From contig PLIQ01000215.1 of NCBI GenBank assembly GCA_003140115.1, forward strand, positions 20,594-39,296: DNA of 18,703 nucleotides. The letters run 5' to 3'. The notes under the pieces were generated by a model that saw only the letters and a list, made by a program, of their open reading frames with translations, was not told the DNA's origin and searched no databases. The DNA comes from Actinomycetota bacterium. GTDB taxonomy: Bacteria; Actinomycetota; Actinomycetes; Streptosporangiales; Streptosporangiaceae. The position numbers were made by a program, and so were the translations under genes. This document shows positions 2 through 18,703 of this stretch, in pieces; the stretch's first letter is position 1; every line of letters starts with the position of its first letter.

Positions 2-1015
2 CAGATGCAGGTCAGCGGGGCGGTCGATACCGGCGCCGTGGTCCTGGTGACACCCGCTCTGACGCCGACCGCGCCGAGTTCGCCCAGCCCCACTCGGGAC
101 GGCCTGCTCGGGCTGGCAGCCGGTGTCGTGCTCGGACTCGGACTAGCCTTCCTGCGCGACAGCCTCGATGACAAGCTCGCCTCCAAGGAGACGGTCGAGC
201 AGGTCGGCGGTGCCCCGGTGCTGGCCATGACCCCGATGGTGCGGTCCTGGCGACGGCAGCCGCTGGTCGTGGTGGTGACCGATCCTACCTCCCCAGCCGC
301 GGAGTCCTACCGGTCGCTGCGGACCTCGCTGCAGTTCGCCCGGCAGGAAGGCCATCTCCGCTGCATCGTGGTGACCAGCCCCGGCGCCGCCGAGGGCAAG
401 ACGGCCACCCTGGCCAACCTGGGGGTCGTCTTCGCGCAGACGGGGGAGCGGGTCGTGCTCGTCTCGTGTGACCTGCGCAGACCCCGGATCGGGGCGTTCC
501 TCGGGCTGGACGAGCGGGTCGGCCTGACTAACGTCCTGCTCGGCCAGCAGAGGCTGGAGCAGGTCGTGCTGCGGGTGCCGGATTTCGACCAGCTAAGCCT
601 ACTCCCGGCGGGACCGGTCCCACCGAATCCCGCCGAACTGCTCAACAGCGGCCGCATGGAGGACGTCTTCGCGACCCTGCGCGAGCATTTTGACCTCGTG
701 CTCATCGACAGCCCGCCGGTGCTGCCCGTCACCGACGCAGCGATATTGTCGCGGTACGCGGATGCCACGCTGGTGCTCGTAGCTGCGGGACAGACCCGGC
801 GCGGCGATCTGCACCGCGCGGTGGAGAAGCTGAACCAGGTCCGCGCCACGATCTTGGGCATCGTGCTGAACAAGGTAAGCAAGCAAACCGGGCGCAATTA
901 TGGGTCGTCGTATGGCTATAGCTACAAGCCTTACCGGGCGGAGGCCTCGCCGGTGACAACGGCTGCAGCGCACCCGAACGGGAGCAGCAGGGCGCCGGAT
1001 CATAGCCCACGCTGA
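2..1015 (+). CDS. Wzz/BY-kinase polysaccharide co-polymerase (tyrosine autokinase), 5' end outside window
   Basis: This is a membrane-linked bacterial tyrosine kinase that would control chain length and export of the polysaccharide. The frame is open at the left edge, so the N-terminal Wzz domain is missing. Counting from the Met at position 5, residues 12-30 are a Pro-rich stretch and 33-50 a transmembrane helix, the usual end of a Wzz domain. The cytoplasmic P-loop kinase follows: Walker A SPGAAEGKTA (125-134, Lys132), Walker A' VVLVSCDLRRP (150-160, Asp156) and Walker B LVLIDSPP (231-238, Asp235). A C-terminal cluster of five Tyr (299, 303, 305, 307, 310) fits the autophosphorylation tail of BY-kinases. 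Kinase and Wzz parts are fused, as often in actinobacteria and Gram-negatives rather than in most Firmicutes. The gene converges on the next one with about 60 bases between; I see no clear terminator there. Confidence 0.93.
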   Translation, partial: QMQVSGAVDTGAVVLVTPALTPTAPSSPSPTRDGLLGLAAGVVLGLGLAFLRDSLDDKLASKETVEQVGGAPVLAMTPMVRSWRRQPLVVVVTDPTSPAAESYRSLRTSLQFARQEGHLRCIVVTSPGAAEGKTATLANLGVVFAQTGERVVLVSCDLRRPRIGAFLGLDERVGLTNVLLGQQRLEQVVLRVPDFDQLSLLPAGPVPPNPAELLNSGRMEDVFATLREHFDLVLIDSPPVLPVTDAAILSRYADATLVLVAAGQTRRGDLHRAVEKLNQVRATILGIVLNKVSKQTGRNYGSSYGYSYKPYRAEASPVTTAAAHPNGSSRAPDHSPR

Positions 1016-1074: not shown

Positions 1075-2103
1075 TCACACTCTGACCCACTGCGCGAGCA
1101 CCACAACGGTGATACCCGCAGTTAGCACGACAGCAAGTGAGCCAACTGCCGGGAGGGCGCCGAACGTGACAAGGAGCCCGAAGATGCAGGAAATTCCTGC
1201 TACGGCCGATAGCAGCGCGGCCGCCTGCGACGTTCGTAGGCCAAGTACTCGCAGCCGGTGAGCGATATGGTCGGTGCCACCTTTCATCAGCGGCCGCCCG
1301 GTGCGATACCTGGATACCACGACCGTGCCGGTATCCACCGCCGCGACGAAGGTCAGCAGCAGCAATCCCGACGTCCGATCCGCCCAGGGGGCTGGCGGGT
1401 CGGATCCGTTATGCAGGCCAAAGACGAACACAGCCGAGGCGGAGGTTACGAACCCTAGGAACAGCGAGCCGGCGTCACCCATGAAGATGCGGGCTGGTGC
1501 CCAGTTGTGGATGAGAAATCCAGCGCAGCTTGCCGAGACGGCGAAAAGAAATACGGAGATGCTCTCCCAGCCGGCTCCGAATGCCAGCACCGCCAAGGCG
1601 GCGGCGGTTACCGCGGCGATACTCCCGGCAGCACCGTCACTGTTGTCGAGCAGGTTGAAGGAGTTCGTCATCAGAACAATCCACAGCACTGTGATGGCAA
1701 TGTAGCAGCAGTTGCCGATACCGTGCAGAGAGCCGAAGACGCCCACTCGGGCGCCAGAGGCGACAAACGCTCCCGCAGCAAGGAACTCGACACTAAGGCG
1801 AACGGAAACGCGCAAGGGCCTGATGTCGTCCGCGAGGCCGAGTAGCGAGATTATGGTTCCGGTCAGGATGAGCGTCAGGACTTGCGGGTCACGCGGCGGT
1901 ACTGCAATTGCCCATGCCGCCAGCGCGCCCATAACTATCGCCGCCCCGCCCAAGTAGGGCGTCGGGGTTCTGTGCGCCTTCGTCTTGCCTGGTACGTCCA
2001 TCAGCCGGTACTTCAGAGCGATCCGGCGCATGGCCTCGGTGAACAAGGCAGTCAGGACAAACGCTACGGCGCCGACCATGGCATAAGGCGCAAGCAGGGT
2101 CAC
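1075..2103 (-). CDS. WecA/TagO/MraY-family polyprenyl-phosphate sugar-1-phosphate transferase
   Basis: This integral membrane enzyme would transfer a sugar-1-phosphate (typically HexNAc-1-P) from a UDP-sugar to undecaprenyl/decaprenyl phosphate, the first step of repeat-unit assembly. Family motifs are all visible in the 342 residues: DVPGKTKAHRTPTPYLGG (36-53), the Asp pair LADDIRP (90-96), NLLDNSDGAAG (150-160, a variant of the usual NLLDNMDG), IFMGDAGSLFLG (206-217) and DHIAHRL (278-284). About ten hydrophobic segments fit the family. The GTG start overlaps the stop of the upstream epimerase by four bases (GTGA, 2103-2100), and I see no good ribosome site, so translation is probably coupled. 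The chemistry is well supported; the sugar (GlcNAc, GalNAc, QuiNAc or other) cannot be read from the sequence. Confidence 0.93.
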   Translation of the reverse strand: MTLLAPYAMVGAVAFVLTALFTEAMRRIALKYRLMDVPGKTKAHRTPTPYLGGAAIVMGALAAWAIAVPPRDPQVLTLILTGTIISLLGLADDIRPLRVSVRLSVEFLAAGAFVASGARVGVFGSLHGIGNCCYIAITVLWIVLMTNSFNLLDNSDGAAGSIAAVTAAALAVLAFGAGWESISVFLFAVSASCAGFLIHNWAPARIFMGDAGSLFLGFVTSASAVFVFGLHNGSDPPAPWADRTSGLLLLTFVAAVDTGTVVVSRYRTGRPLMKGGTDHIAHRLRVLGLRTSQAAALLSAVAGISCIFGLLVTFGALPAVGSLAVVLTAGITVVVLAQWVRV

Positions 2104-3480: not shown

Positions 3481-4329
3481 TCAGGATGCCTTGACGATGA
3501 AGGCCTGCCCGGTGGGACAGCGCACGATCGGCTCCGGGCGGTCGGCCATGAATTCTTCCATTGCGCTGGTGGCACCGGGGCATGTGGCGAAGCCGTAGTC
3601 GTCACAGATGATGATCCCTCCCGCTACCGTCCGCGGGTAGAAGAACTCAAGCGAGTCTCTTGTCGGCTGGTAGAGATCAACGTCGATATGGACGAAGCAG
3701 AATTGCCGATTCATGACCTCGGCAAAGCGCTCGGGGATCCAGCCTGGATAGAAGTTCACCTCAAAACCCGTGAGCGTCGCCCGCGCGCGATCCTCCACCG
3801 TCTTGAGGTTTCCGGGTTGCCAGTAGCGTCCGTCCAAGTGTGTCGGCTCCGGCAGTCCCTCGAACGAGTCGAACGCATGGTGGGCCTTACCCGAGCCGCG
3901 GAAGTGGTCGCAGATGAACCACGAGGTCGCGCCCTCGTACACGCCGCACTCGGCGGTGTCGCCCGGCAGCCTATCGGCGAGTTGCAGCAGCGATCTCAAA
4001 AAATACTTCCGGTCGGCAGACCGGTCGTTACCAGGGACGAGTCTTCGATATTGGACTAGGAAGTCGTCGTCTTCGAACCACAGCTTCGCGTAGTCGGTGA
4101 CGACGTAGGAGGGGCATATATGGGCGGCCACCCGCGCAAGCAGTCTCCAGCCAGCGTGCTCTCGGGCGAAGCGGTCCTGCTCTGAACGGGCCACCGCATA
4201 GAGGCGGCACATCGTGAGCGTTCCGCAGACGAGTCCACGCAGCCGGGGCGGCGCTTTGCGGATGAGGACCCGCCGAATCCGGCGGGGTACGGCAGTCGCG
4301 TTCCTGGGATAGCTCAACTGGTTTGTCAT
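3481..4329 (-). CDS. TylF/MycF-type O-methyltransferase
   Basis: This 282-residue SAM-dependent, probably Mg-dependent methyltransferase belongs to the family of macrocin and mycinamicin sugar O-methyltransferases, many members of which sit in polysaccharide clusters. Visible marks: AECGVYEGATS SAM loop (126-136), DSFEGLP (154-160), the metal-site stretch VHIDVDLYQPT (213-223), and ICDDYG (241-246). It probably methylates a sugar hydroxyl of the repeat unit or its precursor. ATG 4329 is preceded by AGGA seven bases upstream. The gene lies alone on the minus strand between the two repeat copies. Its likely promoter is the leftward-facing one in copy 2, read through the dead epimerase start (4594-4499). 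The first ~60 residues are basic and not diagnostic. Family call is firm; acceptor unknown. Confidence 0.9.
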   Translation of the reverse strand: MTNQLSYPRNATAVPRRIRRVLIRKAPPRLRGLVCGTLTMCRLYAVARSEQDRFAREHAGWRLLARVAAHICPSYVVTDYAKLWFEDDDFLVQYRRLVPGNDRSADRKYFLRSLLQLADRLPGDTAECGVYEGATSWFICDHFRGSGKAHHAFDSFEGLPEPTHLDGRYWQPGNLKTVEDRARATLTGFEVNFYPGWIPERFAEVMNRQFCFVHIDVDLYQPTRDSLEFFYPRTVAGGIIICDDYGFATCPGATSAMEEFMADRPEPIVRCPTGQAFIVKAS

Positions 4330-5615: not shown

Positions 5616-6586
5616 CCGGCGCTCCACCGGAACAGGGCCGGCTCGCCTGCCCGCTGTGCGACGGGCTCGTGCATACCCGCGTCTGGACGGTGACCGCCGA
5701 GGTGATCCGGAGCGGGCTGAGCCGGGAGTGGGGCGCGCGCATCTCCGGGGACGCCTTTCCCGCGCCGTCCGAGGCCACGTTCGCCCTGTACGAGTGCGAG
5801 GGGTGCGGGCTGCACTTCTTCGTCCCCGGCCTGGCCGGCAGCGCGGCCTTCTATCAGGAGCTCATGGCCACGGTCCCGTACGAGACGGCCCAGTCCCGGT
5901 GGGAGTTCGGCCAGGTCGCCCGCCAGCTGAGACCCACGGATCGCGTGGTCGACTTCGGTTGCGGCGACGGCGCCTTCCTGCGGATGGCCAAGCCGCTCGT
6001 CCGGCAGGCGGTCGGTGTCGACCGTAACCCCGACGCGATCGAGCGGCTGGGCCAGGCGGGCCTGACCGGCGAGGAAACGTCTTGCTCGGAGTTTGCGCAG
6101 CGTCATCCGGAGGGCTTCGATGTGGCCTGCGCCTTTCACACGCTCGAGCATGTCGCCGAAATAAGCGAGTTCCTGACGGCTGTTGTCTGTTGTGTGCGTC
6201 CCGGTGGCCGGGTCTTTCTTTCGGTGCCCAACCGCCGTCGGCTCGCGCGGCAGAACGGTGAGCCGCTGGATTGCCCGCCGCACCATGTCAGCCGCTGGGA
6301 TCCCGCTCAGTGGCTGGTGCTCGCCATCCGGTTCGGGCTCGATCTGCGGGAAGTGCGGTTCCAGGAGCCGACTTTGTCCCACGTTAAGTTGCTGTACCGG
6401 CAGCGCCTTGACCGCGGCTACGGCCGACTGCTCCGGCGGCCCGCGCCCGCGCTGGCCCTGCGCGCTTACGCCAAGCTGCTGGTCGGGCCCACACGCCACG
6501 AGCGAAGGGCGCGGCGCGGCTGGTATTCGCGGCGGGATATCTACGGCCACGCGATGCTGGCTGAGTTCGTCAGGCCATCGCCGTGA
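5612..6586 (+). CDS. Class I SAM-dependent methyltransferase with N-terminal Cys4 zinc-ribbon-like domain
   Basis: This 324-residue protein starts with CPLC (Cys13, Cys16) and, after about 45 residues, CEGC (Cys62, Cys65), a likely zinc ribbon. The methyltransferase core follows: VVDFGCGDGAFL (112-123), GVDRNPDAIERL (135-146), CAFHTLEHVAEISEF (173-197 region) and VRPGGRVFLSVPNR (195-208). Proteins of this layout are common in O-antigen and capsule clusters and act on sugars or glycan ends. The C-terminal third (about 240-324) is basic and less conserved. The GTG start overlaps the preceding stop by four bases. The last 46 bases overlap the convergent fusion gene (6541-6586), so the two 3' ends lie on opposite strands of the same DNA. 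Part of the dead remnant at 3398-3480 resembles residues 173-200. Exact acceptor unknown. Confidence 0.88.
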   Translation: MTGAPPEQGRLACPLCDGLVHTRVWTVTAEVIRSGLSREWGARISGDAFPAPSEATFALYECEGCGLHFFVPGLAGSAAFYQELMATVPYETAQSRWEFGQVARQLRPTDRVVDFGCGDGAFLRMAKPLVRQAVGVDRNPDAIERLGQAGLTGEETSCSEFAQRHPEGFDVACAFHTLEHVAEISEFLTAVVCCVRPGGRVFLSVPNRRRLARQNGEPLDCPPHHVSRWDPAQWLVLAIRFGLDLREVRFQEPTLSHVKLLYRQRLDRGYGRLLRRPAPALALRAYAKLLVGPTRHERRARRGWYSRRDIYGHAMLAEFVRPSP

Positions 6587-9500
6587 GCCCCGCCCTGGTC
6601 TGAGGCCGTCGCGCGGAGCTCGCGTGGCCGCCTGCCGCCGAGCAGCCCGTAATACAGCCGCAGAGAGTCGGTCACCATCCGGTCGACGCCGAACCGGTCG
6701 CGCACGAGAGCCCGGCCCTCAGCCCCCAGCTCGGTCGCCAGGCCGGGGTCGGCCAGCAGTATCAACATAGCCTCGGCTAGGGTCTCCGGGTCGCCGGGGC
6801 GGACGAGGATGCCTCCCCCATGGTTGAGGATCTCCGGCACGCCACCCACCGCGGAGGCGATCACCGGGCGGCCGTGCGCGAGGCTCTCGAGCACGGCGTT
6901 CGGCATGCCTTCGGTCAAGGACGGCAGGACCGTGAATGAGCAGTCGGCCAGCAGGGAGGGAACGTCGGCTACCGAGCCCAGGAAATCGACCTCCTCGTCG
7001 ATGCCGAGCTCGCGAGCCTGGGCCCGCAGCGCCTGCGCCGCGGGTCCCGAGCCCACGAGCTGCAGCCGGGCCGCCACCGTCGGGAGCGCGGCCCGGACCT
7101 GTGCGAACGCGGTGAGAGCGACGGCGTGGCCCTTATAAGGGTAGAGGTTGGCCACGATAACGATGCGCTGCGGCGCTCCGCCCGGGGGCGCGACCTCTGC
7201 CGGCAACTGCACCCCGTTGCGGATTACGACGGCCTTGCGCCGTGGCAGGCCAGAGCGGGCGATGGCATCTTCCATCACCGCGGCCGAGTTGCAGACCACG
7301 GCTTTGGCGAGACGATCGCAGGCCCGCTCCCACGGAAAGAGCAGCCGGATCCGGCTGGCGGCGGCGGTGAGGCTCCGCCGCGAGCTGACGACCACCGGCG
7401 CGCCGACGCTACGCGCGGCCGGCACGCCGATCAGGTAACCCCAGTACAGGAAGCAGTGGACGACGTCGGGCGATGCCTCCCGCAGGACGCCGCGCAGCCG
7501 CCGGACGGCCGGCAGCAACTCATCCCTCAGCCACCACGGCCGGAACACCAGCGACCGGTGCAGGCTGGGAAAGCCGATCTCGGCCACACGGATTCCCGCG
7601 GCGCGCGCCGCGGCGCTCTGGTGACCCGCCCTGACCAGGCAGATGGCCGTCACCTGGTGGCCACGGGCGGCCAGGGCCGAGCCAAGCAGCAGGATCTGCC
7701 CCTCCGTCCCACCGCGGTTCAAGGTGCCGACCACGAAGGCCACCCGGAGCGGGTCGTCGTCCCTGACCCGCGGCCGGGCTTGCCGTCGGGCGAGGATCAC
7801 GTACGATAGCGCGAGCGCCGCGTAGCAGACCGAGGACGCGATGCTCGAGCCGCGGATGCCGATCCGGGGCAGGAGAGCGACGTTCAGGGCGACGTTGACG
7901 CAGAGCACACCGAGGCCCAGCACGGTCAGGACAGCCGCCCGCCCCTCCTTGAGCAGCATCGCCAGCAGCGGCCGGGTCGCGCCGAGGGCGACTATACCGG
8001 GCAGCAGCAGGCGCAGCGCGGGGGCGGCGCCGACGAACGCGGAGCCGTACACGACGCGGATCGCTAGCGGCGCCAGCAGCCAGGCCGCCGCCGCCGCGCT
8101 CATGGATATCCAGAGGCTTCGCCGGACCATCGCGAAGCTGAGCCGGTGCCCGTCTCCTGAGGACGCCCGCACCTGATGCGGTACCAGGGCGGCGGCCAGT
8201 GGAGCGGTCACCAGCCAGAGCATCTCGGCGATGGTCGTGGCGAGCGTGTACAAGCCGAGCTGCCTGTACCCCGCGAACCCGCGCACCAGCACCTGATCCA
8301 CCCGCAGCACCAGATAGAAGATGGCCTGCGCGCCGTAGGCCTTCACGCCGAACGCCACGGACCGCCAGAGCAGGTCGCGATCGGGCCGCAGGCATACCAG
8401 CCCGGCCCGGCGGCAGGCCAGCAGCAGCAGCAGCCAGGTGGAACCGTTGAGCAGCCACTGCAGCATCAGCACGCGAAACGGGGTCAGCTCGTGCAGGCCA
8501 AACAGGACGCCGACCGCGGCCGCCTGCACAGCGGCGCCGATCCAGGACGCGTGGGCCGTAACCACCAGCCGGCCATCGATCTGGAGCAGGCTCGCCCAGT
8601 ACAGGCTCATGAGCGCAATCGGCACGAGCCCGGCCGGGAGAACGAGCCACCACAGTGGCAGGCCGCCGGTCGTGCGCGGGTAGATGACGACGACGATGGC
8701 CAGACCAGCCCAGCACAGGCCGCCAAGGAGCACGCTGACCACCGTCGCGTTCGCCCACATACGTCGCAGGTCCTGACCCTGGCTCGCCAGGCGGATCTGC
8801 GCGAACTCCAGCCCGATGTGCCCGAATGCCACCATGATCCCGAGGATGGCGACGGGATAGGCATAAAGGCCGCGGCCGACGGGGCCAAGCGAACGCGCGA
8901 TCAGTGCGCTGGCGGCGAATCCGACCGCGTTGGCCAAGATCCACAGGCCCATGACGTGCACGCCGGTGGAGGTGGCCCGGGCGAGTCCCGAGGCGATTTC
9001 CCGCTCCTCAGCGACACCGCGGTCCAGTTGCCTGGGCCAGGCCACGGACGGGCCGGGTCGCGCGCCGAGCCTGCGGGCGGTGTCATGCGCGAAAGCCAGC
9101 GGCCTGAAGTCCCCGCGAACGTACAGCGCGGGAACCACCAGCAGCAGCAGCGCCAGCCCCGGCAACGGGAACACACGCGCCTGCACAAGCACGGCGACAG
9201 CCACGACGCAGGCGCCGGCGGCCGTCCAGGCCTGGGCCAGCTGCGGGCGCCGGGCGAAGGCGTACAGGCCCACCACCAGCAGCAGGAGCTCCACTGTGTA
9301 GCGCTGCCTGAAGAACCCCTGGTTCTGGAACACGACCGCGTAGAGATACAGGTACACCAGTGCGGATATCACGACGCCCTTCGCGGCCCACGGTCCCCGC
9401 CGGATGAGCTCCCAGCAGCCGAACGCCACGGCCGGCAGCATCAAGATCCACACGATCATGCCTGGATAAAGCGCGCGGTATACCGTGTCGGTCGCCGGGT

Positions 9501-10380
9501 TGAACGCCCACGGAAACGGCCCGAGCAGCGAACGAAGCACGCTGGTGACGGACGGGGTGAAACTTGCCGTCACGGGACCGTTGCCGAGCGAGAGCGATGC
9601 GTCGCCGGCCAGTGTGGACTTCAGCAGGTGCACATACCTAGCCGCCAGCACGACCGAGACGAGCGCCAGGACCGGAAGCCCCACGAACAGGACGCTCATC
9701 CGGGTCCCGGCCGATACTGCGGGTCCGTGACCCCGGATGCGGCCCCGCAGCAGCCTAACGACCGGGACCACCATCATGATCAGGCAGACGAGCGCCAGAA
9801 CGGGACGGGACATGAAGCCCACCGCGATGAGGGCGGTCGCGGCCGCCAGGCGCCTCATCGTCAGCGGCCGCAGCGCGATCGCCGCCATCGCCAGCAGCAG
9901 CGCCGTGAGCGGGCCGTCCTTCAGGCCGCTGGTGCCCCAGAAGACCGCGTTGGGATACAGGGCCGCGAGCCACGCCGCGCGGACGGCGAGACGACGCCCG
10001 CCCAGAGCGTCGCCGATGGCGGCCGCGGCGGGAACCGACAGCGCGGACAGCAGCGCGGCGACGACCTTCAGCACCACCCAGTGGTGGCCGAACACGTAGT
10101 ACACCACGGCAACCAGGACGTAGTACAGATAGGAGAGCGTACCGGCGTACGCGTACGAAGCCGGCGACGGGAACGTGTGCCTGGACCACTCCTGGGCGAG
10201 TGACCATCCGATCTGGTCATATCCTTGGTCGTCCAGAAACAGGAAGTTCCCGTGCAGGGCCTGGACGACGAGGACCGTGATCACGCGGACGGCCGCGCCG
10301 GTCACGAACGCGGTCTTCGCCAGCCGCCAGGCAGATGGCGCGGCGTTCTCCAGGCCGACCCGGCCCGCACGGGACGTCAT
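6541..10380 (-). CDS. Three-domain fusion: GT-C-like membrane protein, Wzx-like flippase, GT4 glycosyltransferase
   Basis: One uninterrupted frame encodes about 1279 residues. Domain 1 (about 22-440) is a multi-spanning membrane protein with an early acidic loop DDQGYD (50-55) and ALYPNAVFWGTSGLKDGPL (about 140-158), as in GT39/ArnT-like and polymerase-like proteins of polysaccharide loci. A hydrophilic linker follows (about 432-470). Domain 2 (about 472-867) is a Wzx/MOP-type flippase with ~12 membrane segments, beginning ANAVGFAASALIARSLGPVGRG. Domain 3 (about 877-1247) is a cytosolic GT-B enzyme: GGTEGQ (890-895) and the GT4 E-x7-E pair in EGMPNAVLE (Glu1157, Glu1165). ATG 10380 is chosen because it overlaps the asnB-like stop (ATGA); ATG 10404 is possible. 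Flippases and GTs are normally separate genes. Domain 3 resembles the GT4 at 12290. Frame continuity is observed; function of domain 1 (transferase or polymerase) is inference. Confidence 0.85.
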   Translation of the reverse strand: MTSRAGRVGLENAAPSAWRLAKTAFVTGAAVRVITVLVVQALHGNFLFLDDQGYDQIGWSLAQEWSRHTFPSPASYAYAGTLSYLYYVLVAVVYYVFGHHWVVLKVVAALLSALSVPAAAAIGDALGGRRLAVRAAWLAALYPNAVFWGTSGLKDGPLTALLLAMAAIALRPLTMRRLAAATALIAVGFMSRPVLALVCLIMMVVPVVRLLRGRIRGHGPAVSAGTRMSVLFVGLPVLALVSVVLAARYVHLLKSTLAGDASLSLGNGPVTASFTPSVTSVLRSLLGPFPWAFNPATDTVYRALYPGMIVWILMLPAVAFGCWELIRRGPWAAKGVVISALVYLYLYAVVFQNQGFFRQRYTVELLLLVVGLYAFARRPQLAQAWTAAGACVVAVAVLVQARVFPLPGLALLLLVVPALYVRGDFRPLAFAHDTARRLGARPGPSVAWPRQLDRGVAEEREIASGLARATSTGVHVMGLWILANAVGFAASALIARSLGPVGRGLYAYPVAILGIMVAFGHIGLEFAQIRLASQGQDLRRMWANATVVSVLLGGLCWAGLAIVVVIYPRTTGGLPLWWLVLPAGLVPIALMSLYWASLLQIDGRLVVTAHASWIGAAVQAAAVGVLFGLHELTPFRVLMLQWLLNGSTWLLLLLACRRAGLVCLRPDRDLLWRSVAFGVKAYGAQAIFYLVLRVDQVLVRGFAGYRQLGLYTLATTIAEMLWLVTAPLAAALVPHQVRASSGDGHRLSFAMVRRSLWISMSAAAAAWLLAPLAIRVVYGSAFVGAAPALRLLLPGIVALGATRPLLAMLLKEGRAAVLTVLGLGVLCVNVALNVALLPRIGIRGSSIASSVCYAALALSYVILARRQARPRVRDDDPLRVAFVVGTLNRGGTEGQILLLGSALAARGHQVTAICLVRAGHQSAAARAAGIRVAEIGFPSLHRSLVFRPWWLRDELLPAVRRLRGVLREASPDVVHCFLYWGYLIGVPAARSVGAPVVVSSRRSLTAAASRIRLLFPWERACDRLAKAVVCNSAAVMEDAIARSGLPRRKAVVIRNGVQLPAEVAPPGGAPQRIVIVANLYPYKGHAVALTAFAQVRAALPTVAARLQLVGSGPAAQALRAQARELGIDEEVDFLGSVADVPSLLADCSFTVLPSLTEGMPNAVLESLAHGRPVIASAVGGVPEILNHGGGILVRPGDPETLAEAMLILLADPGLATELGAEGRALVRDRFGVDRMVTDSLRLYYGLLGGRRPRELRATASDQGGAHGDGLTNSASIAWP

Positions 10381-12302
10381 GCCGGCAAGACGCCCGGACG
10401 GCATCCAGGCGGCGCGGCGGGGTGAACGGCGGGGGTATCTACGTATGCCCTATGCCACAGCTCGAACTGGATCAGCGCCCACAACAGCCGCGCATGATCA
10501 TGTCCCTGATCGTGCTCGGCGAGCATATTCGCGACGGCCTCGGGCCGGAACAGGCCGCGCGAGCGGGCCGTGGCGTCGGTGAGCACATCACGAGACAGGT
10601 CTCGGAAGCTGGTTCGCAGCCAGGCCGCCATCGGCACACCGAAGCCCTGCTTGCGCCGGGTGAGCAGCTCGCGTGGCAGCCACGGCTCCATCGCCTTCTT
10701 CAGCAGGAACTTCGTGGTTCCCCTGCGGAGCTTGAGATGAGCCGGCAGCCCGGCGGCCCACTCCATCAGATGATGGTCGAGAAAGGGGCACCGGGCTTCG
10801 AGCGAACACGCCATCGACGCGATGTCCAGCTTCACCAGGATGTCTCCTGGCAGGTAGGTATGGATGTCGACATCCATGACCCGGCCGGCCCGCGACGGCG
10901 CGAGGGAGGCCGCGAAGGCCTGGTCGATGAGCTGGTAGCTGTCGATCCCGCCGACCTGCTCGCGCAGGTCGTCCGTATAGATCTGCAGCTTCTGCTCCGG
11001 CGTGAAATACGACACGAGCCTGGCGTAGCGGCGGGAAGGCGGCTGGCCCAGCACATCGAGCGCCCGCGCCGCCTGGCGCATCCGTGGCCGGTCCCCGGCC
11101 GCGGCCAGCCGCGACGACAGGCCGCGCAGACCCGGACGGATGACGCTGGGTACCGGGAGCCGCCCGGCCGTGGCCAGGTAGCGCTGATATCGCTGATAGC
11201 CGCCGAAAAACTCGTCACCGCCGTCGCCGGTCAGCACCACCGTTACGTGTTGGCTGCTCAGTTCAGACACATAGAAGGTCGGAATCGCGGAGGCGTCGGC
11301 GAACGGCTCGTCGAAATGCCACGCCAGCGACGGCAGCACCTCGAGGGCCGAGGACGTCACGACATGCTCGTGGTGATCCGTGCCGTAGCGGCTAGCTACG
11401 ATCCGGGCGTAGGCCCGTTCGTCGAACATGGCGTCCTCGAAGCCGATGCAGAACGTCTTGACCGGCTCCGATGCGCTCCGCGCCATCGCGGCGACCACCG
11501 CGGAGGAGTCGACGCCACCCGACAGGAACGCGCCGAGCGGCCGCTCACTCATCAGCCGGATTCTGGTGGCCTCGAGCAGCAGTTCCCGCAGCCGCTCCGC
11601 GGCCTGCGCAACCGAGGTGACCGGCTCAGGCGGGGCAGCGGGCAAAGTCCAGTACCGGTGTGTCTCCACCCGCCCGTCCTGCCAGGTGAGTATGTGCCCC
11701 GGCGGCAGCTTGCGCACCTCCTGGTAGATGGACCACGGCGCCGGCACGTACTGATAGGTGAGGTAGTGATGCAGGGCGACCAGGTCCACCCGGCGCGCGA
11801 GGCCGGGATCGACCGCGAGCGCCTTGAGCTCCGAGCCGAACCATAGCGACCTGCCGTCGCAGCGCCAGTACAAGGGTTTCTTGCCCACCCGGTCCCGCGC
11901 CAGCAGCAGGCGCCCCCGCGCGGCATCCCAGACGGCGAGGGCGAACATGCCCCGGAGGTGGTCGACCAGCGAGTCCCCGTATTCTTCGTACAGGTGGGCG
12001 ATGCATTCGCTGTCCCCGTCCGTCACCATCCGGTGGCCCCGCCGTCGCAGCCCGGCCCGGAGTTCGGCGAAGTTGTAGATCTCACCGTTGAAGACCACCG
12101 CCACCGTGCGGTCCTCGTTGTATACCGGCTGCTGTCCCCCGGCCACATCGATGATCGCGAGCCTTCGCATGCCGAGCACGGCATGCGGGCCCTCGTGGTA
12201 GCCAGCGCCGTCCGGACCCCGGTGCGCGAGCACGTCACACATCCGGCGCACCAGGCCGGCATCGGGCTGTCCAGTGGACACGATTCCCGCTATGCCGCAC
12301 AC
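10377..12302 (-). CDS. AsnB-like glutamine-dependent amidotransferase (asparagine synthase family)
   Basis: This 641-residue protein has both AsnB halves. The class II glutaminase has the N-terminal nucleophile Cys2 (MCGIAGI), RGPDG (28-32) and FNGEIYN (71-77). The ATP-pyrophosphatase synthetase has the PP-loop SGGVDSS (261-267) and TGDGGDEFFGGY (358-369). All key residues are present. In a polysaccharide locus such proteins probably amidate a carboxyl group, for example a uronic acid or an amino-acid substituent, rather than make free asparagine; that is inference from context. GTG 12302 has GGAG five bases upstream, and the Cys must be residue 2, which fixes the start. It overlaps the upstream GT4 by 13 bases and the downstream fusion gene by four (ATGA), so all three form one operon. 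Confidence 0.9.
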   Translation of the reverse strand: MCGIAGIVSTGQPDAGLVRRMCDVLAHRGPDGAGYHEGPHAVLGMRRLAIIDVAGGQQPVYNEDRTVAVVFNGEIYNFAELRAGLRRRGHRMVTDGDSECIAHLYEEYGDSLVDHLRGMFALAVWDAARGRLLLARDRVGKKPLYWRCDGRSLWFGSELKALAVDPGLARRVDLVALHHYLTYQYVPAPWSIYQEVRKLPPGHILTWQDGRVETHRYWTLPAAPPEPVTSVAQAAERLRELLLEATRIRLMSERPLGAFLSGGVDSSAVVAAMARSASEPVKTFCIGFEDAMFDERAYARIVASRYGTDHHEHVVTSSALEVLPSLAWHFDEPFADASAIPTFYVSELSSQHVTVVLTGDGGDEFFGGYQRYQRYLATAGRLPVPSVIRPGLRGLSSRLAAAGDRPRMRQAARALDVLGQPPSRRYARLVSYFTPEQKLQIYTDDLREQVGGIDSYQLIDQAFAASLAPSRAGRVMDVDIHTYLPGDILVKLDIASMACSLEARCPFLDHHLMEWAAGLPAHLKLRRGTTKFLLKKAMEPWLPRELLTRRKQGFGVPMAAWLRTSFRDLSRDVLTDATARSRGLFRPEAVANMLAEHDQGHDHARLLWALIQFELWHRAYVDTPAVHPAAPPGCRPGVLPA

Positions 12303-13408
12303 CGGCGCTCCAGCAGCCCGGAGTAAATCTGGATGTGCCGGTCCACCATGGCCGCGACGCTGAGGTGTCCGCAGCTCCAGTTCCTGGCCGCCTCACCCAG
12401 CCGGACCGCCAGCCCGTGATCGGACAGGACCTGCCCGATCGCCACCGCGAGCGCTACCGGGTCGGCAGGAGGCACGATCAGGCCACGCCCTGCGAGCAGT
12501 TCAGGTGTCCCTCCGACGCGGGTGGCGACGACGGGCCGTCCCGCTGCCATCGCTTCCATGACGGCGTTGCTCATGCCCTCTCTCAGAGAGGGAAGCACCA
12601 CGACGTCCGCTCGCGCGAGCAGGGGCCGCACATCGTGGCATTGGCCGAGGAACCGGACGTCGATGCGCAACCCCGCTGCCTGGCGCTCCAGGGAATGGCG
12701 TTCCTGGCCCTCTCCGGCGAGCAGGAGCGTGCACGGGCGGCCGTCCCGTTGCAGACGGTCCATCGCCTCCAGCAGGTAACGGTGCCCCTTGCACCCTCTG
12801 AGGTTCGCCACGCAGAGCACGACGGGATCGGAAGTCTCGACGTCGGCGGGTGAAACCGCCGCGAAGGCCTGCTCGGGCAGGCCGTTGTAGACAACCTCAA
12901 CCTGGCCGACGCCTACTCGCTCGCGTCGCTCGGTGTCCGCTGCGACGGCTTCGGCGTTCGCGATGATCAGGTCGGTGATGCGAGTCGCCAGCCGTTCGGC
13001 GGCCAAGGCCACCGGGCGGCCCTCCTTGAAGTCCCCGAGGCTGCGCCGACCCGCCACGAAGACCGGGATCCGGGCCATCCGGGCGACCGGCGCGCCGACG
13101 ACATACGAACGAAACAGAAACGCGTGGACAATATCCGGACGTTCCCGGTGCAGACGTATTGTCATAGCTCCCAGCCGGGTGAAATTCGGCGGAGCCTGGC
13201 ATAGGTTCCGGAATCGGCGGAGTCCAATATCCACTACCCGGATACCGTCCCGCCGGAGCGCGTCTTCGTGGCATTTTTCGGTGTCACCGGACAGGACCCA
13301 GACACTGGTATCGATGCCCCGCTCGTGAAGGCCGCAGGCCAGCAGGACGACTTGCTTCTCAGTCCCCCCCATGCCGAGTTGCTCAATCATCAACACGACA
13401 CTTCTCAC
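12290..13408 (-). CDS. GT4-family glycosyltransferase
   Basis: This cytosolic GT-B enzyme, about 372 residues, would add a sugar to the lipid-linked intermediate. From the chosen start: MRSVVLMIEQLGMGGTEKQV with the glycine-rich acceptor loop (12-19), KGHRYLLEAM (about 207-216), and the nucleotide-sugar site EGMSNAVME (E277-x7-E285) followed by GRPVVATRVGGTPELL. The frame is open back to 13552. I chose GTG 13408 because it starts just before the first beta strand; GTG 13507 and GTG 13552 are alternatives, and none has a strong ribosome site. It is clearly related to domain 3 of the fusion protein: both have VH(A/C)FL, RRSL and LPSL-EGM. It is first in the operon with the amidotransferase and the fusion gene. 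Donor and acceptor unknown. Confidence 0.85.
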   Translation of the reverse strand: MRSVVLMIEQLGMGGTEKQVVLLACGLHERGIDTSVWVLSGDTEKCHEDALRRDGIRVVDIGLRRFRNLCQAPPNFTRLGAMTIRLHRERPDIVHAFLFRSYVVGAPVARMARIPVFVAGRRSLGDFKEGRPVALAAERLATRITDLIIANAEAVAADTERRERVGVGQVEVVYNGLPEQAFAAVSPADVETSDPVVLCVANLRGCKGHRYLLEAMDRLQRDGRPCTLLLAGEGQERHSLERQAAGLRIDVRFLGQCHDVRPLLARADVVVLPSLREGMSNAVMEAMAAGRPVVATRVGGTPELLAGRGLIVPPADPVALAVAIGQVLSDHGLAVRLGEAARNWSCGHLSVAAMVDRHIQIYSGLLERRCAA

Positions 13409-13531
13409 CGATGGCGGCGCGGGCCGCGAACTTCGGTCCCGGACTCGGGGCGCGCCTCCTCGGGCTCGGACACTATCTGTAATATATGATCCACGTAGAG
13501 TAATCACTGACCGACTGTACCCCAGGTAGGG
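13409..13531. promoter_or_regulatory. Divergent intergenic region between the two large operons
   Basis: This is the only spacer between the leftward GT4-amidotransferase-fusion operon and the rightward GT4-epimerase-methyltransferase operon, so it probably holds promoters for both. It contains an AT-rich patch around 13476-13506 (CTGTAATATATGATCC and TAGAGTAATC) that stands out from its GC-rich surroundings. I cannot place exact -35/-10 boxes. Confidence 0.4.
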
Positions 13532-14773
13532 ATGCCTGCGCAGGGATTGCACCTGGGGACGATCGGAGCACGAGAGGAGGGGTTGGGAAAATTGGGGGGG
13601 AACCCGGCGCTGCGCGTAATGCGGATTATGGCGCGCACGAACGTCGGAGGGCCCGCGCTGCAGGCCACGATTCTCATGCGGGAACTACCGGCTGACAGGT
13701 TCGAGCAGCGGCTGTACGCCGGCTCGCCGGCGGCCGGGGAAGCCGATTTTCTCGAACTCCGCGCGCCCGCCGTCCCCGTCTACCGAGTACCGACGATGAG
13801 CCGCAGTGTCAGGCTCGGCAATGACGCCCGCGCACTTGGATTCCTTGTGTCCGAAATGCGGAAGTTCCGGCCGCATATCGTGCACACCCATACCGCGAAG
13901 GCCGGTGTCGCCGGGCGCTTGGCGGCCATGATGACCCACGTTCCAGTTCGCGTTCACACCTTTCACGGGCATCTGCTTCATGGCTACTTCTCCGCCGTGG
14001 CGACCCGCGGTCTGGTCGTGGCGGAAAGCGCTCTCGCCCGGCATACCGACCGACTGGTCGCGGTGGGAGCCCAGGTCCGTGATGACCTGCTGGCCGCCGG
14101 AGTCGGCACTCCTGCCCAGTACGTCGTGGTGCCGCCTGGAACGTCACTCGGCCCGTTGCCCGACCGTTCGGTGGCACGGCGCGCACTGGGCGTGCCGCTA
14201 GATGCCGCGGTCGTCGCCTTCGTGGGACGGCTAACCCAGGTCAAGCGCCCCGACCGCCTTCTCGCGGTCGCTCAGGAGGTCAGCCGCGCCGTCCCCGGTA
14301 CCAGGTTCCTCGTCTGCGGCGATGGTGATCTCGCCGCAGACGTCCGGCATGCGGCCCGGCACGGTGACGGCGGCATCACGGCGCTCGGCTGGCGGGCCGA
14401 TGTGGAGACCGTTTACGCGGCCGCTGACCTCGTCCTGCTCACCTCCGACAACGAGGGAATGCCGGTGTCGCTCATCGAAGCGGCCCTGGCCGGCGTGCCC
14501 GCCGTCGCCACCGACGTCGGCAGCGTGGCCGAGGTCGTCGAGCATGAGGCCACCGGCATTCTCACCGACGCCAGCCACGAGGCGCTGGCCTGTGCGGTGA
14601 TCCGGCTGCTGGCCGACGAGGAACTACGCCGTGACATGGGCGCCCGCGCCCGTGTCCGGGCCGCTGCCCGGTTCGGCCCGGAACGGCTGGCGTCGGATAT
14701 CGAGCGGCTTTACGAGTCCATGGCACTTGCCCGCGGATTGCGGTCAGGCGCCCACACATCAAAGCGTGCCTGA
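13532..14773 (+). CDS. GT4-family glycosyltransferase
   Basis: This GT-B glycosyltransferase (413 residues from ATG 13532) has MRIMARTNVGGPALQ (30-44, acceptor loop), HTHTAKAG (118-125), GRLTQVKRPD (232-241) and the GT4 nucleotide-sugar motif NEGMPVSLIE (Glu308-x7-Glu316) followed by GVPAVATDVGSVAEVV. It would extend the lipid-linked oligosaccharide. The start is uncertain. ATG 13532 has only a weak AGG five bases upstream. TTG 13592 has a strong AGAGGAGGGG (13573-13582) nine bases upstream and lies closer to where homologues begin, giving about 393 residues. It is first in an operon with the epimerase and the methyltransferase. It is only distantly similar to the other two GT4 sequences here, so it probably makes a different linkage. 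Confidence 0.87.
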   Translation: MPAQGLHLGTIGAREEGLGKLGGNPALRVMRIMARTNVGGPALQATILMRELPADRFEQRLYAGSPAAGEADFLELRAPAVPVYRVPTMSRSVRLGNDARALGFLVSEMRKFRPHIVHTHTAKAGVAGRLAAMMTHVPVRVHTFHGHLLHGYFSAVATRGLVVAESALARHTDRLVAVGAQVRDDLLAAGVGTPAQYVVVPPGTSLGPLPDRSVARRALGVPLDAAVVAFVGRLTQVKRPDRLLAVAQEVSRAVPGTRFLVCGDGDLAADVRHAARHGDGGITALGWRADVETVYAAADLVLLTSDNEGMPVSLIEAALAGVPAVATDVGSVAEVVEHEATGILTDASHEALACAVIRLLADEELRRDMGARARVRAAARFGPERLASDIERLYESMALARGLRSGAHTSKRA

Positions 14774-16690: not shown

Positions 16691-17020
16691 AGGTGGACTC
16701 TGGGCGCCCTACGACGGCTACGACGGCCTGGCCGGGCACGCTGTGTGTGCGGCGCGCACCTGCTCCGGGAGCTCACCGCGGTCACCGAGAGCGGCACCGC
16801 CGGTGACATGATCTGGGCGCGGCAGGCCATCGACGCCCTGCTGGAGCTGAAGCAGGCCGCCGGTGTCGCCCGCGCCGCAGGGCACGAGGCCATCGACGCG
16901 GAAGTCCTGGACAAGTACGGCCGCTGGTTCCGCGACGCCGCGGACACCAGGATCGTCCTGAACGCCGCCCGCCGCAGGAAGGTGCAGAAGAGACGGCACG
17001 CCCTAGCTACCCGGATGGCG
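16691..17020 (+). mobile_element. IS66-family transposase fragment, frameshifted
   Basis: The reading WAPYDGYDGLAGHAV (from 16701) followed, two bases out of frame, by CGAHLLRELTAV (from about 16748) matches the IS66 transposase segment WAPYDxY...HALCNAHxLREL. The shift falls in a short TG run (GCTGTGTGTGCGG), so slippage is likely. Homology continues through IWARQAIDALLELK, YGRWFRDAADT and QKRRHALATRM to about 17015. The N-terminal half, the C-terminal half with the last catalytic residue, and both IS ends are missing. An open frame of 109 codons (16745-17074) covers the second part but cannot encode an active transposase. Confidence 0.8.
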
Positions 17021-17024
17021 GCCC

Positions 17025-17996
17025 ATGCCGAAGGCCGTGTGCGAGGCGATGTCCGCGGCCATATACGGCGCTGACATCAGCAAGCTGCGGAGCATGGGAG
17101 GGAACGTCATCGCCTCCTTCGGCGGGAGCACGGCAGACGGCGACAGGACCGAGATCGCTGACTCCTGCGGGACCGTAAGCACTATAGCCGCAGCGTACGA
17201 GTCCGTGATAAGCACCTATGGGGTGACGCGCCTGGATATGGATGTCGAGGGTAAGTCCCTGGCCGATTCCGCCGGGATCAAGCGCCGGAACCAGGCCATA
17301 AAACTGGCCGAGATATGGGCGGCCCAGCGCGGTATCCCCCTGAAAGTCCAGTACACGCTGCCGGTCGCGAAGTCAGGCTTGGTTGCCAACAGCCTTGCTG
17401 TCCTGCAGGATGCCGTGGCCGAGGGCGCCAGGGTCGACGTCGTCAACGTCATGGCATTCGACTACCACGCGCCAGGTGAGGGCACCGTCAACATGGGTGT
17501 CGCTACCGAGAGCGCCCTCCGGGGAGTGCACGAGCAGCTGAAGCAGCTCCACCCCACGACAAGCTCGGCGAATATCTGGCGCATGCAGGGAGTTACGCTC
17601 CTGCCAGGAATCGACAGCGCGCCGGACCGGGCGGAGCTGACGGACCTCGTGGACGCCGCCAACGTGCTCCGTTTCGCTCAGGCCAATCACGTCGATCTCA
17701 TCGCCATCTGGGCGGTACAGCGCGATAACGGTAGCTGCCCCGGGACCGCCGACAACAATTCGTGCTCTGGTCTCAGCCAGAGGACCTGGGCGTTCAGCCA
17801 GGTGCTGAACTCCTTCACGAGCTTATTCCACGCGCCCGGAGCCCGGGGGGATCTAGCCCCCCGGGCTTTGCCATGTTCAGCGGCGATCAGGGCATCCGGA
17901 CGTGCGACATGGGCGACATGCGCAGATTTCACCGTTCGGTGGGCTCATATTCACATTAAGCGCTGTTCAGACCCGATTCCGCGAGTAAGCCGGTGA
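17025..17996 (+). CDS. GH18 chitinase-like protein, 5'-truncated and with abnormal 3' end
   Basis: Residues about 14-266 match glycoside hydrolase family 18: SFGG (31-34), the catalytic strand TRLDMDVEG (68-76) with the proton-donor Glu75 and Asp73, MAFDYH (143-148) and IWAVQRDNGSCPG (228-240). The usual first Asp of DxxDxDxE is Thr68, as in some actinobacterial GH18 enzymes that carry LDxDxEG. The N-terminus is missing: there is no signal peptide or first beta strands, and the first ~14 codons lie next to IS66 sequence. The family end is near SQVLNSFTS (266, base ~17822). The remaining 57 codons cross a strong hairpin (17840-17867) and stop near the IS1380 element, so the original stop seems to have been lost. 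It is probably a broken, non-secreted gene unrelated to polysaccharide assembly. Confidence 0.75.
   Translation: MPKAVCEAMSAAIYGADISKLRSMGGNVIASFGGSTADGDRTEIADSCGTVSTIAAAYESVISTYGVTRLDMDVEGKSLADSAGIKRRNQAIKLAEIWAAQRGIPLKVQYTLPVAKSGLVANSLAVLQDAVAEGARVDVVNVMAFDYHAPGEGTVNMGVATESALRGVHEQLKQLHPTTSSANIWRMQGVTLLPGIDSAPDRAELTDLVDAANVLRFAQANHVDLIAIWAVQRDNGSCPGTADNNSCSGLSQRTWAFSQVLNSFTSLFHAPGARGDLAPRALPCSAAIRASGRATWATCADFTVRWAHIHIKRCSDPIPRVSR
17840..17869. terminator. Strong hairpin terminator inside the chitinase-like frame
   Basis: AGCCCGGGGGG (17840-17850) and CCCCCCGGGCT (17857-17867) form a perfect 11-bp stem with a six-base ATCTAG loop, followed by TT. The weak T tract fits a high-GC intrinsic terminator. 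Its place just after the family end of the chitinase marks where that gene used to stop. Confidence 0.75.
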
Positions 17997-18089: not shown

Positions 18090-18703
18090 GTGAGCAGGAT
18101 ACGTGCTGGTGGCAGGCGGCGTCAGCGGGTGCGGGCCGGCGCGCCGGATGCGGCGCTGACGCCGAACGCGGGAATGGCCGCGATCAGCGAGTTGTGTGAC
18201 CGGCTGGACGTGACCGGGGCGCTGGATGCGGCGGTCGGCCCGGTCAAGCAGCGGGATCGCGGGTTCGGGGCCGGGGAGCTGCTGACGGGGATCGCGGCGG
18301 CGCAGCTGGCCGGGGAGGACTTCTTGACCGGGCTGGACCGCCAGCGCGCCGATGCGGCCGGGCAGCTGGTCACCCCGGTGCCGGGGCTGGCGTCCACGAC
18401 CGCGGCCGGGCTGGCCCAGCGGATCACTCCCGCCCAGTGGCGGGCGGTCGAGCGTGGCCTGGCGGCAGTGACCGGGCGGATGCTGGACCTGGTGCCCGCG
18501 GAGCGGGCCGCGGCGCTGGCCGGCGGGCCGGTCACGATCGACCTGGACACCACCGATGTGGAGGTCTACGGCCGCAAGAAGCGCGGCGTGGCGTATAACC
18601 ATCAGGGCCAGCGGGTGGGCCGGCCGCACGTGGCGGCCTGGGCCGAGACCGAGATCGTGCTGGCCGCCGACCTGGGCGACGGCACCGATGACCCGCGCGC
18701 GAC
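18090..18703 (+). CDS. IS1380-family transposase, 3' end outside window
   Basis: The frame is open from GTG 18090 to the window edge (204 codons), with GGAGAGGA (18072-18079) ten bases upstream. The N-terminal part has PNAGMAAISELCDRL (25-39) and RDRGFGAGELLTGIAAAQLAGEDF (about 55-78). The RNase H-like catalytic domain begins at VTIDLDTTDVEVYGRKKRG (148-166), with Asp151/153/156 holding the first catalytic Asp, and continues with AYNHQGQRVGRPH. This matches DDE transposases of the IS1380 family. No frameshift is seen in the visible part, so the element may be intact, unlike the IS66 fragment. Confidence 0.88.
   Translation, partial: MSRIRAGGRRRQRVRAGAPDAALTPNAGMAAISELCDRLDVTGALDAAVGPVKQRDRGFGAGELLTGIAAAQLAGEDFLTGLDRQRADAAGQLVTPVPGLASTTAAGLAQRITPAQWRAVERGLAAVTGRMLDLVPAERAAALAGGPVTIDLDTTDVEVYGRKKRGVAYNHQGQRVGRPHVAAWAETEIVLAADLGDGTDDPRA

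Follow-up and report, generated by a model that had tools for sequence, protein, structure and literature searches.

A single polypeptide joining GT-C-type, Wzx-type and GT4 domains in a putative actinobacterial polysaccharide locus

The DNA analysed here, an 18,703-nucleotide stretch of contig PLIQ01000215.1 (assembly GCA_003140115.1, Actinomycetota bacterium) that we call the window, carries on its reverse strand a gene (6541..10404) whose product joins, in order, a GT-C-type membrane glycosyltransferase (module A), a Wzx-type flippase (module B) and a GT4 glycosyltransferase (module C). Comparison with homologous proteins confirms that this A-B-C gene is genuine and that its layout is conserved in part of its family; it is an unusual combination built from known domains. 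We propose, with a probability of about one half, that the protein is a fusion for assembling glycans across the membrane, encoded in a polysaccharide locus of Wzx type. Undecaprenyl phosphate would receive the first part of the unit from a WecA-type enzyme; in the cytosol the GT4 domain would add a late sugar to the lipid-linked oligosaccharide, and the Wzx domain would flip it. At the outer face the GT-C domain would then use the flipped lipid-linked sugar as donor for en-bloc transfer, by polymerisation or ligation, while the disordered A-B linker would hold the parts 1:1 and close, forming no sealed channel. The data below show the domains, their predicted folds and conserved motifs, the conservation of the layout and the repeated change of the fused state; the reactions themselves, their donor and acceptor, the origin from neighbouring genes and any advantage of being fused are what we infer from them.

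The initial annotation of this DNA had described one long frame without a stop, and the frame is indeed open over 1287 codons, its layout being kept in 17 homologue clusters. Openness by itself proves little, because the same 71% GC stretch also holds a 675-residue antisense frame (8176-10203, forward strand) and a 474-residue frame (7520-8944, reverse strand); we judge the gene real because relatives conserve the layout. The GC content at third codon positions is 0.81-0.94 throughout and even across both joins (A/B near 9061-8998, B/C near 7764-7747), and the other two frames of the same strand contain 40 and 9 stops, the latter being frame +2 with 9 in 1288 codons. Two starts are possible, ATG at 10404 and ATG at 10380. 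The second, where the initial annotation had ended the gene without naming a strand, is the likelier, since it overlaps the stop of the upstream asparagine-synthase-like gene as ATGA and since P0002-P0008 align from that Met; it would give a protein of 1279 residues and 136 kDa. P0002, from an ENA contig, is nearly identical to the window protein, with two substitutions and one added residue after the later start.

Module A (9061..10380, reverse strand; residues 9-448) is classed as a GT-C_A-type membrane glycosyltransferase by its AlphaFold2 fold and its similarity to PMT_2. Over about residues 9-440 it scores 25.0 bits against PMT_2, below the cut-off of 26.1, and 25 of 50 members of its family match that profile at E<=0.01. 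The predicted fold resembles PMT, ArnT and oligosaccharyltransferases (OST), with ArnT and PMT among the nearest folds, and the model has no large soluble domain after the helices. No Wzy or WaaL stands among the fold matches listed, which is no evidence that A differs from them. Searches with module A gave no match in PHROGs and none at E<=1 in a sequence-profile search of the PDB. Residues D58 and D59 (10228..10233, reverse strand, codons checked) are present in 50 and 49, respectively, of the 50 rows of a module A alignment, and by analogy we place them in the first loop on the outer side, as putative catalytic acids. When module A alone was used as query, 59 proteins were found; identity is 43-90% for 56 of them and 31, 31 and 22% for the three distant ones, and PF13231 is precomputed for six. 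An alignment (A1) took 49 of these and left out P0133, P0136, P0141, P0143, P0157 and P0159-P0163. All but one lack B (58/59); the exception, P0162, is a fragment of a fused gene that still includes a portion of B. The longest contig reaches at least 10 kb for 23 of the 59, and 'lone' A proteins on short contigs may in some cases be truncated. Lone members of this family, roughly 450 residues long, are mostly called 'hypothetical protein' where the source gives a name.

Between the two membrane parts lies the linker that the initial annotation had described (residues 427-469; 8998..9126, reverse strand). It is poorly conserved, and its predicted local distance difference test (pLDDT) value is below 50 at model residues 419-450, that is, 427-458 of the protein. 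Val464 (GTC, 9013-9015) occupies the position at which separate B-C proteins, P0020 for instance, begin with Met, and a scan of the surrounding codons places the in-frame starts at residues 454, 482, 485 and 490; the ancestral B-C start is therefore lost, and at this site the two parts are truly fused.

Module B (7765..8997, reverse strand; residues 470-880) scores 29.4 bits against PF01943 (Polysacc_synt), over the curated cut-off of 28.2. Its AlphaFold2 fold is that of the MOP superfamily, with WzxE as best match and MATE transporters scoring nearly as high, so that we predict a Wzx-type flippase for lipid-linked oligosaccharide. Module C (6640..7746, reverse strand; residues 887-1255) matches a GT4 profile at E 1.9e-36 and exceeds the cut-offs of Glyco_trans_1_4 (125.9 bits against 27) and Glyco_transf_4 (73.9 against 28.5). 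Among 72 rows, 8 truncated or partial rows of 80 being left out, E1165 is kept in 70, E1173 in 71 and K1091 in 69; the two glutamates form the EX7E motif. Profiles, predicted folds and conserved layout thus agree with the initial annotation on GT-C, Wzx and GT4 parts in one chain and in that order. A cytosolic C-terminus, and with it the topology of the chain, is plausible, since such an end suits a GT4 domain and since a Wzx with C-terminal GFP was functional according to PMC3412221, where 'Wzx fused' denotes a reporter or tag construct. The hydropathy scan of the protein is too ragged to confirm the roughly 24 membrane spans given by the initial annotation.

Homologues of the whole protein were taken from the 7992 candidates sharing most words with it, with lengths of about 708-2252 residues, a range in which a lone B or C could not be returned. 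The initial annotation had proposed counting relatives with the same three parts; 17 of 106 clusters have A-B-C in full and in the same order, 16 of them at 60-90% identity and 95-99% coverage. Two more have A-B-C with C cut short (P0023, P0031), two have A-B without C (P0064, P0065), and in 26 the similarity is confined to C or to a weak stretch. In two close B-C relatives, P0049 and P0053, C is followed by a Wzy_C domain and the front lacks A. In P0033 and P0036 a TylF methyltransferase is fused to the end of B-C, 75-77% identical to the separate TylF-type gene of the window (3481..4329, reverse strand; PF05711), so that fusion seems to follow gene neighbours and not only membrane steps. The initial annotation had also looked to relatives with the parts as separate genes as a sign against fusion: at the A/B join such genes exist in many relatives and not in the fused clades, while at the B/C join no split gene was seen in a search whose length limits excluded lone B or C. 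The source names Streptosporangiaceae for P0036, P0058 and P0113, the sole taxonomic hint for this family, and the locus probably belongs to a Streptosporangiaceae-like actinobacterium. Among plasmid records 695 had a match, none covering 80% of the query; viral contigs gave no match to the fusion protein, and genome contigs gave a single weak one, to the GT4 part only (L001).

How often the fused state changed was followed on trees of the B-C region, the 17 fused rows having been labelled before any tree was made. A quick tree of all 80 rows needs eight changes of state, seven of them forced, and a careful tree of 60 rows needs seven (bootstrap 6-7), five of them forced by starred branches. 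The 20 rows dropped for the careful tree were chosen after the quick one, as partial or ambiguous (P0023, P0031, P0060, P0061, P0064, P0065, P0070, P0071, P0072, P0074, P0081), as distant (P0075, P0077, P0078, P0080) or as near relatives (P0037, P0041, P0043, P0063, P0067); the near-identical P0002 is absent from both trees, and the careful tree carries the warning that the long branch of P0073 joins its root. A single origin, with all fused proteins in one clade, was rejected by the approximately unbiased (AU) test (p 1.7e-6). A group of the window's protein with P0003-P0009 was rejected as well, at a p of 0.004 that is weaker because the group was chosen once the tree had been seen. Within a nine-row clade of P0012-P0018 plus P0056 and P0057, seven rows are fused and the last two are split. 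In P0019 only the N-terminal 15 residues of the window protein precede B, which looks like an in-frame loss of A. As a separate observation, P0021 repeats the MAEER start of B-C. On these trees, the fused state appears to change both ways, or fusion is recurrent.

The neighbourhood of separate A and B-C genes was approached indirectly, by longest contigs of equal length and by the compatibility of gene ends with an overlap, rather than read from the relatives' DNA. Nine A/B-C pairs share an equally long longest contig. Six of these apparent same-contig pairs are compatible with an 8-nt overlap of the A stop and the B-C start, P0138/P0057 fits a 4-nt ATGA overlap and two fit a 1-nt overlap only; among 600 unmatched pairs, 148 fit an overlap of at least 7 nt, so that overlap of neighbouring A and B-C genes is suggestive only. 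In the scheme we propose, the stop and start that separated adjacent genes, which probably overlapped, would have been lost, either repeatedly or with later returns to the split state.

Similar parts are joined differently in distant single chains with the order Wzy_C-GT4-Wzx (1241-1515 residues). A search from P0101 gave eight matches including itself, with this order in P0101, P0167, P0168, P0169 and P0171, and with only a short shared stretch in P0173; P0092, which the source assigns to Ktedonobacterales, has it too and was not returned by that search. The GT4 and Wzx parts of P0092 and P0101 are 26-34% identical to C and B. Given the different domain order and this low identity, a flippase appears to have been joined to a GT4 and to a membrane enzyme of the outer face on separate occasions, at least twice. 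Two other arrangements were seen, Wzy_C followed by GT4 in P0088 (908 residues) and a Wzx-type domain with two GT4 stretches in P0091 (1250 residues).

The genes around the fusion include three parts of a Wzx/Wzy-dependent locus: an initiating phosphoglycosyltransferase, the Wzx of module B and a bacterial tyrosine kinase (BY-kinase). The first is of WecA/MraY type (1075..2103, reverse strand; PF00953 at E 1.2e-32) and scores 98.7 bits against the NCBIfam WecA model, below its cut-off. The kinase belongs to a Wzz/Wzc-like co-polymerase that the left end of the window truncates (2..1015, forward strand; TIGR01007, 176.8 bits, cut-off 108). Directly upstream of the fusion, and sharing the ATGA overlap with it, lies an asparagine-synthase-type amidotransferase gene (10377..12302, reverse strand; TIGR01536, 476.4 bits, cut-off 267.1). 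Its top score is to the XrtA/PEP-CTERM amidotransferase model TIGR03108 (650.6 bits, below the cut-off of 816.9), and the GT4s of the window likewise match an XrtA-system model best, below its cut-off. A second GT4 gene (12290..13552, reverse strand) heads the run of genes that contains the fusion and is 37% identical to module C, which may therefore stem from a local duplication. Apart from the fusion, the window has two GT4 genes in all, together with two epimerases and four methyltransferases; the 15 window proteins that were scanned gave no Pfam match to Wzy (Wzy_C or another polymerase), GtrA or GT2. Near the right end, a GH18-like frame (17025-17993, forward strand), below the Pfam cut-off, overlaps a shorter preceding frame, and the region 16745-17996 is possibly a broken or differently started gene. 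A DDE transposase-like frame, also below the Pfam cut-off, begins at the right edge (18090-18701, forward strand).

Among the roles of polymerase, ligase and decorating transferase, we favour A as an en-bloc transferase because of the Wzy_C fusions and because neither a lipid-phosphate sugar synthase nor a separate Wzy is in view. Several observations weigh against this assignment and against the one-chain mechanism as a whole. The GT-C_A fold predicted for A weakens the assignment: Wzy and WaaL enzymes belong to another GT-C subclass, so the fold does not imply a polymerase. The missing Wzy is weak evidence, since the window ends inside the Wzc-like gene and the locus may have a separate Wzy beyond that end. 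The family most often shows B-C without A (55 of 106 clusters, plus two B-C-Wzy_C and two B-C-TylF), and the A-B fusion has come or gone on several occasions among its members, so that a single chain is not needed. Of 31 B-C proteins that lack A and whose longest contig measures 10 kb or more, seven have an A match on an equally long contig; the remaining 24 may lack A, may have a much diverged one or may have one that is missing from the A matches listed. All four incomplete fused entries (P0023, P0031, P0064, P0065) end, by eye, in an apparent frame change, which in P0064 and P0065 falls late in B, before the B/C join. Among the distant fusions, P0170 (scanned) and P0172 (precomputed domains), two of seven such P0101-family proteins, have GT4 and Wzx and no Wzy_C. 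Finally, the initial annotation had suggested that one chain would physically channel the repeat unit through the membrane, and this is not supported: the AlphaFold2 model of A+B has a predicted template modelling (pTM) score of 0.53, a disordered linker and no confident relation between A and B, which leaves a fixed A-B arrangement unsupported, and the fusion is repeatedly gained or lost.

The strongest rival is that overlapping, co-transcribed neighbours in stop-poor, GC-rich DNA fuse and split by small changes, a nearly neutral process that would say little on mechanism beyond co-expression. We consider this quite possible, at somewhat under even odds. It would account for the seven changes of state on the careful tree, the rejection of one fused clade, the split pair P0056/P0057 inside a mostly fused clade and the apparent in-frame loss of A in P0019. 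It is also consistent with the ATGA fit of P0138/P0057, the few stops of frame +2 and the fusion of C in P0033 and P0036 to a TylF methyltransferase, an enzyme with no flipping step. The 8-nt fits (6/9 against 148/600 for any overlap of at least 7 nt) point the same way, but overlap inferred without DNA is weak, with 25% of unmatched pairs fitting and two of the nine apparent pairs fitting 1 nt only. Against read-through as the whole account, fused clades persist, as in the nine-row clade just mentioned, and in distant proteins comparable steps are combined in a different order. That the fusion is an assembly or sequencing artefact joining separate genes is very improbable: close relatives do have separate A and B-C proteins, but 16 other clusters share the layout with linkers of their own, composition is even across the joins, and the apparent frame changes break genes rather than join them. 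For the family, with 17 fused clusters, such an artefact is unlikely.

Two other readings keep the three parts cooperating and change what A does. In one-chain multi-component transmembrane glycosylation, A would decorate an acceptor from a lipid-monophosphate sugar, B would flip that donor and C would help make it. ArnT and PMT, which are among the nearest folds of A, use lipid-monophosphate donors, a point in favour of this reading. Trios of a cytosolic glycosyltransferase, a flippase (GtrA, or of Wzx/MATE type) and a GT-C enzyme are also known, according to PMC11127046 and PMC8035078. We nevertheless hold it unlikely, since C is a GT4 and not a GT-A polyprenyl-phosphate sugar synthase, and the scanned proteins of the incomplete window contain no GtrA or GT2 match. 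The best match of B, moreover, is WzxE, which has 12 helices and carries pyrophosphate-linked oligosaccharide according to PMC11706664, although MATE proteins score nearly as high. Alternatively, A could be an oligosaccharyltransferase or ligase that transfers the glycan, once flipped, to an acceptor on a protein or in the wall, and the product of the locus would be a glycoconjugate and not a free polymer. This is a special case of the en-bloc mechanism that we prefer, and the odds of the two overlap; taken alone it is rather improbable, as the model lacks a large soluble domain after A's helices and the BY-kinase part in the locus points to control of polymer chain length.

The locus resembles the Wzx/Wzy-dependent pathway in its WecA-like, GT4, Wzx and BY-kinase genes. 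It differs in that WecA, the glycosyltransferases, Wzx, Wzy and Wzz are separate there, while here Wzx is fused to GT4 and GT-C_A and no separate Wzy was found in the incomplete window. Module B, unlike WzxE, the MOP flippase for enterobacterial common antigen (ECA) in E. coli, has further domains at both ends. Module A shares its fold and PMT_2 similarity with PMT_2/GT39-like and ArnT enzymes, yet it is fused to a flippase and its model has no large soluble domain. The Wzy_C-GT4-Wzx proteins likewise combine flippase and GT4 with a membrane enzyme of the outer face in one chain, in another order and with a Wzy/WaaL-type domain where GT-C_A stands here. Multi-component transmembrane glycosylation (GtrA/GtrB/GT-C, GacI-GacK-GacL and the GT136 system) offers the same trio of cytosolic glycosyltransferase, flippase and GT-C enzyme, but as separate proteins with a lipid-phosphate synthase in place of a GT4, and the words 'fusion' and 'fused' are absent from PMC8035078 and PMC11127046. 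Among the open-access matches listed (titles and abstract openings), we recognised no report of a natural Wzx-glycosyltransferase or GT-C-Wzx fusion.

Whether a late cytosolic transferase, a flippase and an outer-face enzyme cooperate physically is difficult to test while they are separate proteins. Fusions found in nature, formed or undone repeatedly and in at least two arrangements, name the partners and supply single-chain constructs for structure and reconstitution. A bolder version of our proposal, which we regard as doubtful, would see in the chain a self-contained, near-minimal machine of Wzx/Wzy kind. A PMT/OST-class GT-C_A enzyme would stand in for the polymerase or ligase, and a single polypeptide would pass the unit on from the last cytosolic transfer through the flip to the outer transfer; Wzx-GT4-Wzy_C and Wzy_C-GT4-Wzx fusions would then be separate answers to the same need. 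For the GT-C family of roughly 450 residues to which module A belongs, the fusions serve as a Rosetta-stone pointer to its role.

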